Shown here: one piece after another, positions 42,684 through 45,565 of the stretch | Position numbering within the stretch: the first letter of the stretch is position 1 | Layout of the letters: the number at the start of each line of letters is the position of its first letter | Notes under the pieces: generated by a model | Databases searched by the model: none | What the model saw: only the letters and a program-made list of their open reading frames with translations | What the model was told of the DNA's origin: nothing | Translations under genes and position numbers: made by a program | From: Prevotella sp. | Lineage (GTDB): Bacteria; Bacteroidota; Bacteroidia; Bacteroidales; Bacteroidaceae | Direction of reading: 5' to 3' | NCBI GenBank assembly: GCA_022771265.1 | Contig: JALFCG010000136.1 | Coordinates: 19,147-83,146 of the forward strand | DNA: 64,000 bases

Positions 42684-42802
42684 GACTTACACCTTATTAT
42701 ATATAAATGAGATGGAAGTTTAACATTTTTTTCTTCGTCACGACGCAAGGTTTCGACATAAACACCGTTTAATTGGTGTAAACAATAAAAAACGGAGAAA
42801 AC

Positions 42803-43522
42803 ATGAGGAGAATAAAACATTTTATCTTTGCCATGATGGCACTGGCGACAGCTGCCTTCACGCTTCAGTCTTGTCTTGATGACGATGACGACAACTACAT
42901 TAGTATTGACCCTGCCACCAGTGTAGGCGTAGTTACGCTGAAACCTGACACAGGTGATGGTTTCGGGTGGTACATCCAGCTAAGCGACTCAGATATTGTC
43001 ACATGCTCGAACATCAAGGATTTCCCTTACGATAACAAAAAAGAATACAGGGCATACATCTATTTCAAGTTCGACTCAGAACCGTCGATGACCGCTGATG
43101 TGAAAACTATCACCATCGCTCGCATCGACACCATCCTGACCAAGCAACTTGTGCCTGACCTCGCCGATCAGGAAGCCAACGACAAAGCCTACGGCAACGA
43201 CCCTGTGGAAATAGTGAAGAGCCAACTGGAAACAACGGCTGAAGACGGGTACATGACGTTGCGATTCCGCACCAACTGGCTTCCTGGAAGCACTCACAGG
43301 GTGAACCTCATGCGTGTGGATGACGAAGACGGGATGGCGACATTTGAGTTCCGTCACGATGCAGGAGGACATACGGCGGGGAACACCGCCGACGGCATAG
43401 TCGCCTTCTACCTTGACCTGGAGAAAGACATCGACCGGACTCCAAGGACTATAAAAATCAAGTGGAAATCGTTTACGGGAGCTAAATCACAGACATTCAA
43501 ATATATACCGAGAAATGACTAA
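42803..43522 (+). CDS. NigD-like lipoprotein
   Basis: Lipobox LQSCLDDDDDNY; VGVVTLKPDTGDGFGWYIQLSDSD resembles NigD family. Confidence 0.75.
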   Translation: MRRIKHFIFAMMALATAAFTLQSCLDDDDDNYISIDPATSVGVVTLKPDTGDGFGWYIQLSDSDIVTCSNIKDFPYDNKKEYRAYIYFKFDSEPSMTADVKTITIARIDTILTKQLVPDLADQEANDKAYGNDPVEIVKSQLETTAEDGYMTLRFRTNWLPGSTHRVNLMRVDDEDGMATFEFRHDAGGHTAGNTADGIVAFYLDLEKDIDRTPRTIKIKWKSFTGAKSQTFKYIPRND

Positions 43523-44089
43523 ATGAACATATTTGGGCACAATAGTGAAAAATCCATGGCAGAAGGCATTCGCAAGGGTGACAACCAGGCGATGCGTGAC
43601 TTCTATGCCCAATTCGGAGGATTGCTCACTGCTGCCTGCTCAAGATATGTAGTTAACGATGACGACGTGAAGGACGTGATGCAGGACGCTATGGTCAGCA
43701 TCATCCAGAACATCGACAGCTTTACATACCATGGAAAAGGCTCGTTAAGGGCTTGGGCCACGAGAATCGTCGTGAACCAGGCCCTAAACTTCTTAAAATC
43801 CCGCAAACGCCTGCAAGATACTTTTGCTGACAAGGACATAGGAAACATCTCTTGTGCCGACGACGAACCGGACGTCGGGATGGTGCCGGAGGAAGTTATC
43901 CACGACATGATAAGCCGCCTGCCCGAAGGCTATAGGGTCGTGTTCAACCTCTACGCCATAGAGGGTAAGAGCCACAAGGAAATAGCGGAGGCACTTGGAA
44001 TCAAGGCAGACTCGTCAGCCTCGCAGTATCACAGGGCGAGAAACATGCTTGCAAGGGAAATAAGAAAATATAAACAGGAACAAACATAA
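43523..44089 (+). CDS. ECF RNA polymerase sigma factor (Das-like)
   Basis: Region 2 VNDDDVKDVMQDAMVSIIQNIDSF, region 4 LPEGYRVVFNLYAIEGKSHKEIAEALGIKADSSASQYHRARNML; abuts the NigD-like gene. Confidence 0.92.
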   Translation: MNIFGHNSEKSMAEGIRKGDNQAMRDFYAQFGGLLTAACSRYVVNDDDVKDVMQDAMVSIIQNIDSFTYHGKGSLRAWATRIVVNQALNFLKSRKRLQDTFADKDIGNISCADDEPDVGMVPEEVIHDMISRLPEGYRVVFNLYAIEGKSHKEIAEALGIKADSSASQYHRARNMLAREIRKYKQEQT

Positions 44090-44092
44090 CAA

Positions 44093-45325
44093 ATGATCAT
44101 GACAGACAAATGGACTAAACAACTGCAAAGAAAGATGGCTGGTTTCGAAAAACCTGCCCCCGAGCTGTCGTGGTCGGATATCGACAACGCACTCAAAGCA
44201 CGAAAGGGTTCAGGAAAGGCTTCCATCGTGCCGCTTTGGGCTAAGCGTGCAGCGGCTGTAGCTGCTGCGGTAGCCGTGATTGGCGGTGTCACAATGATGG
44301 TGAACAAGGAAACGGAAGTACCGACTGTCACAGCCACTGTGGCAAAGCAGGTGGAGACGCTGGCTGATAACACCGTGACTGCTTCAGCGACGGAACCTGT
44401 GGCTGCAGGCTGCCATAACCGTGGAAATACCGGACGGATATCGGAAAGCGGCACACGGCAGGAAGAGACGGCGCTTGATATGCAAGAGATGACCGATATG
44501 GAAGCGCAGGTTGAGACAGCACCGGAGACACAGGAGGAAAAACCGGAGCCAACGGAACGTCAAAATCCTAAAGCAAAGGCTACAACACGGTCGGCATATA
44601 ACTATTATGACACTGACAGAAAGCGTGCAGGCTCCTCGTTGCACAGAGCGTCGTCGAACTTTGCCATTGACGTTCATGCCCAGGGGCTTCTCGGCAACGA
44701 CAATACAAGCAACGGCAATATGTACGCGTCGAGTATAACCATGAGCAGTGCGCCGACTTACAGTGCGGGAGAGATGCAGATGACAGGAAAATACTACCCG
44801 TTGCTGAACCTTCAGTCGGCTCCGACAATCGATTACGACCACGACCTCCCGATAAAGGTGGGGATGAGCGTCAGGTATAATATCAATGACCGTTGGAGTC
44901 TCACGTCGGGAGTGAACTACAGTTATCTTCATTCCACGTTTACCATTGATGGTGACAATGGGAGCCGCGGCGACCAGAAACTTCACTATATAGGCGTGCC
45001 ACTTACGGCTAACTACAATGTTTGGCAAAACAAACAGATGAAGGTCTATGTGGTTGCCGGCGGTGCGGCAGAAAAGCTGCTAAAGGGAAACCGCAGCAAA
45101 AGCGTGACCGGGGCTGACGGTGAAACAAAAGTGAGCGAGAAGCGGCTGCAATGGTCGGTTCAGGCAGCTGCAGGCGTGGAGTATAACATCACTCCTTCCG
45201 CCGGCTTGTATCTGGAACCAGGTGTGAGTCATCACTTCGACAACCATTCGGATGTGGTGAACATCTATAAGGACAAGCCCTGGAACTTTAGCCTTAACGT
45301 TGGCTTTAGAATAAATCTGAGATAA
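44093..45325 (+). CDS. Putative dual-membrane-spanning anti-sigma factor (N-terminal cytoplasmic region + TM + linker + outer-membrane beta-barrel)
   Basis: N-terminal about 48 aa then TM AAAVAAAVAVIGGVTMMV; acidic/low-complexity linker; C-terminal porin-like repeats ending VGFRINLR. Confidence 0.75.
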   Translation: MIMTDKWTKQLQRKMAGFEKPAPELSWSDIDNALKARKGSGKASIVPLWAKRAAAVAAAVAVIGGVTMMVNKETEVPTVTATVAKQVETLADNTVTASATEPVAAGCHNRGNTGRISESGTRQEETALDMQEMTDMEAQVETAPETQEEKPEPTERQNPKAKATTRSAYNYYDTDRKRAGSSLHRASSNFAIDVHAQGLLGNDNTSNGNMYASSITMSSAPTYSAGEMQMTGKYYPLLNLQSAPTIDYDHDLPIKVGMSVRYNINDRWSLTSGVNYSYLHSTFTIDGDNGSRGDQKLHYIGVPLTANYNVWQNKQMKVYVVAGGAAEKLLKGNRSKSVTGADGETKVSEKRLQWSVQAAAGVEYNITPSAGLYLEPGVSHHFDNHSDVVNIYKDKPWNFSLNVGFRINLR

Positions 45326-45340
45326 AACGATGTGACACAA

Positions 45341-45375
45341 AAAAAGCTAAGGAGCATGAGCTTCTTAGCTTTTTT
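45341..45375. terminator. Bidirectional terminator
   Basis: AAAAAGCTAAGgAGCatgaGCTtCTTAGCTTTTT. Confidence 0.75.
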
Positions 45376-45376
45376 G

Positions 45377-45450
45377 CGCTTCAGGATGGGCTTGAACCAA
45401 CGACCCCATGATTAACAGTCATGTGCTCTAACCAACTGAGCTACTGAAGC
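45377..45450 (-). tRNA. tRNA-Asn(GTT)
   Basis: Cloverleaf GCTTCAG...CTGAAGC, anticodon loop CTGTTAA, T-arm GGTTCAAGCC. Confidence 0.95.
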
Positions 45451-45491
45451 AGTGGTGTTAAAAAAAAGAGACTGCCGCTTGCAGCCTGTTG

Positions 45492-45565
45492 CGCTTCAGG
45501 ATGGGCTTGAACCAACGACCCCATGATTAACAGTCATGTGCTCTAACCAACTGAGCTACTGAAGC
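45492..45565 (-). tRNA. tRNA-Asn(GTT), second identical copy
   Basis: Same sequence as 45377-45450; TACCTTTG promoter box at 45596-45603 (minus). Confidence 0.95.

Follow-up and report, generated by a model that had tools for sequence, protein, structure and literature searches.

Switches of the Dma/Das and EcfO/Reo type have already been described in Bacteroides, and the locus analysed here is a Prevotella form of this known type. Dma/Reo proteins are described as restricted to Bacteroidota, as joining the cytoplasm and the outer membrane in one chain, and as connected with vesicles, resistance to toxins and fitness in the gut. Dma1/Das1 of Bacteroides thetaiotaomicron acts through NigD1 (Pardue et al., as summarised in PMC13088901), and vesicle control is established only for Dma1 and Dma2 of that species. 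The EcfO-Reo system has nigD genes as targets and is induced by envelope-attacking toxins, according to PMC9308784 and PMC13114119, and for Phocaeicola vulgatus the phenotype published in the former is protection against toxins. The accessible text of these accounts gives no promoter and little regulon beyond the nigD genes.

Our locus consists of three plus-strand open reading frames in a window of 64,000 nucleotides (the whole stretch of DNA analysed), at 42803-43522 (239 aa), 43523-44089 (188 aa) and 44093-45325 (410 aa). The gaps between them are 0 and 3 nt, and both the coordinates and the tight packing are exactly as a preliminary description of this DNA had given them. The locus resembles Dma1/Das1/NigD1 in its anti-sigma segment, transmembrane (TM) helix, disordered tether, C-terminal barrel, ECF partner and NigD1-subfamily lipoprotein as predicted output, but belongs to another bacterial family, the Prevotellaceae, and has extra predicted outputs, a DUF4840 lipoprotein and an alpha-2-macroglobulin (A2M). 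EcfO/Reo of P. vulgatus and B. fragilis is alike in its anti-sigma factor spanning both membranes and its neighbouring nigD tag, and our locus would resemble it also in its autoinduction and in its control of nigD, of which it has several targets; the P. vulgatus regulon comprises three nigD genes and a longer O-antigen, whereas one nigD target and DUF4840 are predicted here. Dma2/Das2 (BT_1558/BT_1559) shares the protein layout, the sigma/anti-sigma pairing and the three-gene operon, but its third gene, BT_1557, is without known function, and the system is reported only in B. thetaiotaomicron and close relatives. Downstream of the operon an inverted repeat read directly from the sequence (AAAAAAGCTAAG...CTTAGCTTTTTT, 45340-45375) is probably its terminator and also that of an opposing tRNA-Asn; it is absent from the output of a terminator scan that restricts the loop to 8 nt. 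Just past it, on the minus strand, lie two tandem tRNA-Asn(GTT) genes with repeated flanks (45376-45450 and 45491-45565). A sigma-70 promoter scan across the operon returned nothing above chance.

The first gene (42803-43522) had been called NigD-like, and this is borne out by a score of 147.9 bits (cut-off 60) against the NCBIfam model NF051862, 'NigD1/NigD2 family lipoprotein', and by Pfam matches to NigD_N and NigD_C. Its lipobox, LQSC, has as cysteine residue 24, which is invariant among 29 homologues, and is followed by LDDDDD, an acidic stretch of the kind that we take to be typical of surface-exported Bacteroidota lipoproteins. The features that define the NigD1/NigD2 family were all found in this protein, namely the above-cut-off NF051862 match, the lipobox and both NigD domains. 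Relatives with solved structures include 3k0y and 3qwn. The genome holds a second NigD-like gene (locus L014, 1093-1821, minus strand, contig 149 of G000), which lies outside any Dma locus and at which no site for the promoter element described below was found.

The second gene (43523-44089), taken from the outset for an ECF sigma factor, proved to match Sigma70_r2 and Sigma70_r4_2 (regions 2 and 4), with invariant region-4 residues in the homologue alignment, and among the NCBIfam matches listed the sigma70-ECF superfamily is the only one above cut-off. Together with its linkage to dma, these matches mark it as a Das/EcfO-like factor; from that linkage we also infer membership of the ECF21 group. 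Divergence of the sigma factor correlates strongly with divergence of the anti-sigma segment (r = 0.84), the correlation with the tether being only 0.54.

Using the sigma factor alone as query, we surveyed 44 Bacteroidales loci in named genomes, spanning Prevotella, Segatella, Hallella, Alloprevotella, Heminiphilus, Muribaculaceae, Mediterranea, Bacteroides and others. The dma gene lies directly downstream of ecf in all 44 loci, a conserved linkage that excludes a chance arrangement, and nigD lies upstream on the same strand in 32. A profile of the Dma protein found matches in 101 of 392 genomes of the order, and in 56 of 204 genera; nigD is placed downstream instead in three loci of that search (L186, L190 and L191). 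The nigD-ecf-dma order is also seen in Muribaculaceae and Mediterranea loci, and in P. vulgatus PMC13114119 and PMC9308784 give consecutive locus tags to nigD (M0N98_03762), ecfO (M0N98_03761) and the anti-sigma gene reo (M0N98_03760). The proposal that the three-gene operon is a distinct Prevotellaceae-type version therefore fails, since an arrangement so widespread is nothing unusual in this order. Other genomes of the genus encode Dma3-like fusions of 564-573 aa (L121-L123), in which an ECF sigma domain is joined directly to TM helix, tether and barrel, and in which no separate anti-sigma segment was seen. Dma3 has the TM helix, tether and barrel in common with our protein, whereas sigma and Dma are separate proteins here.

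That the third gene (44093-45325) encodes a Dma-type anti-sigma factor, as had been suggested, is supported by domain searches, structure prediction, the homologue alignment and conserved linkage. The product is probably one chain running from the cytoplasm to the outer membrane and restraining the adjacent sigma. The extent of the reading frame stands as first described, but not its start: the column aligned with M3 is an invariant Met in all homologues, and because most of them begin there the gene is likely to start at 44099. An AlphaFold2 model built with 41 homologues shows helices at residues 4-16, 27-38 and 48-70, disorder at 73-182, and eight barrel strands (190-197, 254-263, 268-285, 291-312, 316-338, 353-365, 370-381 and 397-407) with pLDDT mostly above 90. 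The two short helices at 4-16 and 27-38, with conserved W7 and P23, make up the cytoplasmic anti-sigma segment (44099-44212), which would bind the sigma factor. The single TM helix that follows (residues 48-70; 44234-44302) is predicted to be oriented N-in from the model, hydrophobicity and charge, each Dma protein having one hydrophobic peak and an N-side net charge of median +4 in the 41 homologues. Residues 71-189 (44303-44659) constitute a disordered periplasmic tether, with pLDDT below 50 over most of 73-182, and residues 190-410 (44660-45322) an eight-strand OmpA/NspA-like outer-membrane barrel. Pfam OMP_b-brl_2 matches residues 245-373, and H250, P253, Q295, E375 and P376 are invariant barrel residues in the homologue alignment. 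The best solved Foldseek match of the model is the OmpA barrel (E 4.6e-5), with OmpA, OmpW and Ail closest; no PDB chain homologous to Dma by sequence was found. Modelling of the third gene alone, a check that the preliminary description had proposed, returned both the barrel and the single TM helix, and the linker of about 120 aa was also recovered. The claim of an eight-strand outer-membrane barrel at the C-terminus held, but the final strand (...NVGFRINLR) is not markedly aromatic-rich as had been stated.

Among homologues, mean pairwise identity is about 10% in the tether, whereas the anti-sigma segment keeps 30-31% and the barrel 42%. The distance from the end of the TM helix to H250 is nevertheless 189 +/- 10.7 residues (CV 5.7%) in the 41 homologues, and 197 +/- 14 in 27 held-out proteins. 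These values, from a comparison of Dma homologues alone with no other linkers as reference, are suggestive of a tether constrained in length and not in sequence. A constraint of this kind would be consistent with a pure spanning role, and would speak against the tether containing a folded sensor or a site of sequence-specific cleavage. A fully extended chain measures 0.36 nm per residue, and the periplasm-crossing stretch of about 120 residues could reach at most about 43 nm in that state. Many membrane anti-sigma factors are released by regulated proteolysis, and the switch might likewise be activated by cleavage in the TM region or tether, as in RseA, rather than by a mechanical or conformational signal passed along an uncut chain. 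The TM helix and the disordered segment do offer cleavage sites, but a tether of 10% pairwise identity holds no conserved sequence for a site-specific protease, while its length is kept; we regard the proteolytic route as quite conceivable, without adopting it. It is also imaginable, though to our minds unlikely, that the Dma chain gauges envelope spacing or tension, with selection acting on how long its tether is and not on its sequence, and that the product of the first operon gene (NigD or a DUF4840 lipoprotein) is a dedicated barrel partner through which the feedback loop is closed at the surface of the cell.

Comparison of the DNA upstream of the first genes yielded one common element, RTGCAAGRTTT-N13-ATTTA, with identical spacing in 18 of 20 strict matches. 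After iteration the element was present upstream of 36 of 56 related operons and missing upstream of about a third; nearly all sites scored 19-38 bits, in a position-weight scoring in which 1% of shuffled sequences rise above 10.6 bits. In the window the predicted ECF-type promoter ACGCAAGGTTTCGACATAAACACCGTTTAATTG (42743-42775, plus strand; -35-like part 42744-42753, -10-like part 42767-42771) scores 27.0 bits, the best in the 64 kb, and its 5' end lies 60 nt from the nigD start codon. Eleven of 27 held-out loci scored above 14 bits, against 0.2% of shuffles, and in several more distant Bacteroidales held-out loci there is a variant, TGCAGTATTTTT-N-CATTTA, whose spacing is unchanged or shorter by one base. 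The comparison with EcfO/Reo brings out a further difference here, in that some more distant Bacteroidales genomes have TGCAGTATTTTT in place of TGCAAGRTTT. Four loci of Prevotella/Alloprevotella type (L025, L006, L052 and L048) have no TGCAAG, and by eye an ordinary Bacteroidota-like promoter, TA-N2-TTTG, stands upstream of them. The element resembles an autoregulated ECF promoter, which predicts self-amplification of the operon; shared upstream of the operon, it also predicts the behaviour typical of EcfO/Reo, a sigma factor that would drive itself and nigD genes. The sigma encoded by the second gene would be the one to read it, as suggested by motif correlation, which leaves the reading sigma unproved.

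The regulon was sought by a pattern search of the genome, in which sites with two or more deviations can be missed. The exact pattern occurs at two sites only in the 2.98 Mb genome, at the Dma operon and ahead of a gene for a DUF4840 lipoprotein of 204 aa, 64 nt from its start; with one mismatch allowed, 15 sites were found against 6 for a reversed control. The other one-mismatch sites of this genome (L065-L077) were rejected as targets, most having a low score or no gene at the right distance. In a set of 20 genomes with Dma, exact matches are clearly more numerous than those to the reversed control, and the sites with high scores stand about 60 nt ahead of genes for NigD, DUF4840 and other proteins with a signal peptide. 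A site precedes each of the 11 DUF4840 orthologues that were examined in genomes carrying Dma; in a second DUF4840 set several genes have it and others lack it, the latter including the DUF4840 gene of the one genome (G003) without a dma match. The family is thus predicted from its promoters, and appears, to be under the control of the switch in trans. It could be objected that a different sigma factor reads TGCAAG-ATTTA, or that this element is a promoter of general use in Bacteroidales, the link to DUF4840 being incidental, and the support for pairing element and sigma is indeed a correlation between sequences. We nonetheless find this very improbable, given the mere two exact sites that a genome of about 3 Mb contains, the joint travel of site and linked genes across many genera, and the siteless DUF4840 gene of G003.

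Independently of the motif, DUF4840 was found beside ecf-dma in nine other loci, as first operon gene in nigD's place in five (L050, L169, L173, L157 and L012/L162) and divergent from ecf-dma in L040, L056, L007 and L002; only in L040 is nigD also present. A relationship between DUF4840 and NigD was ruled out, as profile comparison aligns the signal peptide only, and none of the papers listed by our literature search names DUF4840. This replacement bears on the view that the lipoprotein confers immunity to a bacteriocin, like the NigD at the nigrescin locus, with sigma and anti-sigma factor as its private regulator in bacterial warfare. NigD was proposed as the nigrescin immunity protein, and nigD genes of P. 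vulgatus are induced by toxin exposure (both as reported in PMC9308784), but the open reading frame list holds no toxin gene within the operon and DUF4840 can replace NigD there; we give this view little credence. A further output of the switch is tentatively seen in a secreted bacterial alpha-2-macroglobulin of about 1820-1850 aa with A2M, MG2 and bMG10 domains. Its gene in this genome has a weaker site (13.6) at 60 nt, and those of relatives have sites at 60-62 nt in three cases (19.3, 13.1 and 7.3) and none in two others. In genome G080 a lipoprotein with a serpin-like start (L081; a Pfam match of 90 residues, weak and below cut-off) has a strong site (33.6 bits, 58 nt), and is a possible protease-inhibitor output.

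We consider it highly probable that the operon is a Dma/Reo-type envelope stress switch, with the barrel, tether and TM layout, sigma release, autoregulation and surface outputs that this entails. The lack of the promoter element at about a third of the related operons and at the second NigD gene of the genome counts against this reading. The domains, structure model, conserved linkage, promoter and predicted regulon members were computed; sigma binding, trigger, sigma release and promoter reading by the sigma would, as we infer them, proceed as follows. Dma would be anchored in both membranes, its barrel in the outer membrane, its tether of about 120 residues across the periplasm and its TM helix in the inner membrane, and its two short cytoplasmic helices would hold the ECF sigma encoded just upstream. 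The barrel, the conserved outer part, would report the state of the outer membrane, and disturbance of either would lead to release of the sigma by tension, conformational change or proteolysis. Free sigma would then transcribe from RTGCAAGRTTT-N13-ATTTA promoters, both at its own operon, a positive feedback giving more NigD and also resetting the inhibitor, and in trans, yielding the DUF4840 surface lipoprotein and, more tentatively, the secreted alpha-2-macroglobulin. These cell-surface outputs would protect or remodel the envelope.

Alternatively, the switch may chiefly set outer-membrane vesicle output via NigD, as Dma1 does in B. thetaiotaomicron, stress protection being secondary. The NigD found here shares its NCBIfam subfamily with NigD1 (BT4005), a protein required for the extra vesicles of the B. 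thetaiotaomicron dma1 mutant (PMC13088901). However, since Dma2 raises vesicles without NigD1 according to the same source, NigD is not the general route to vesicles, and the predicted trans targets (the DUF4840 lipoprotein and A2M), as well as the toxin protection gained by P. vulgatus Reo mutants (PMC9308784), also speak against vesicles as the main outcome, which we hold to be possible but doubtful. The predicted DUF4840 and A2M outputs would favour a role in envelope defence, and the predicted regulon as a whole may point to such defence at least as much as to vesicle formation.

In conclusion, the envelope stress switch proposed here adds a predicted promoter, a link to DUF4840 lipoproteins and a suggested tether-length constraint to what was known of its type. 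With tether length constant despite diverged sequence, the crossing of the periplasm by an outer-membrane signal becomes testable via the length of the tether. The fixed-spacing promoter and the DUF4840 link would allow direct and cheap tests of the outputs of the switch across Prevotella and its relatives.
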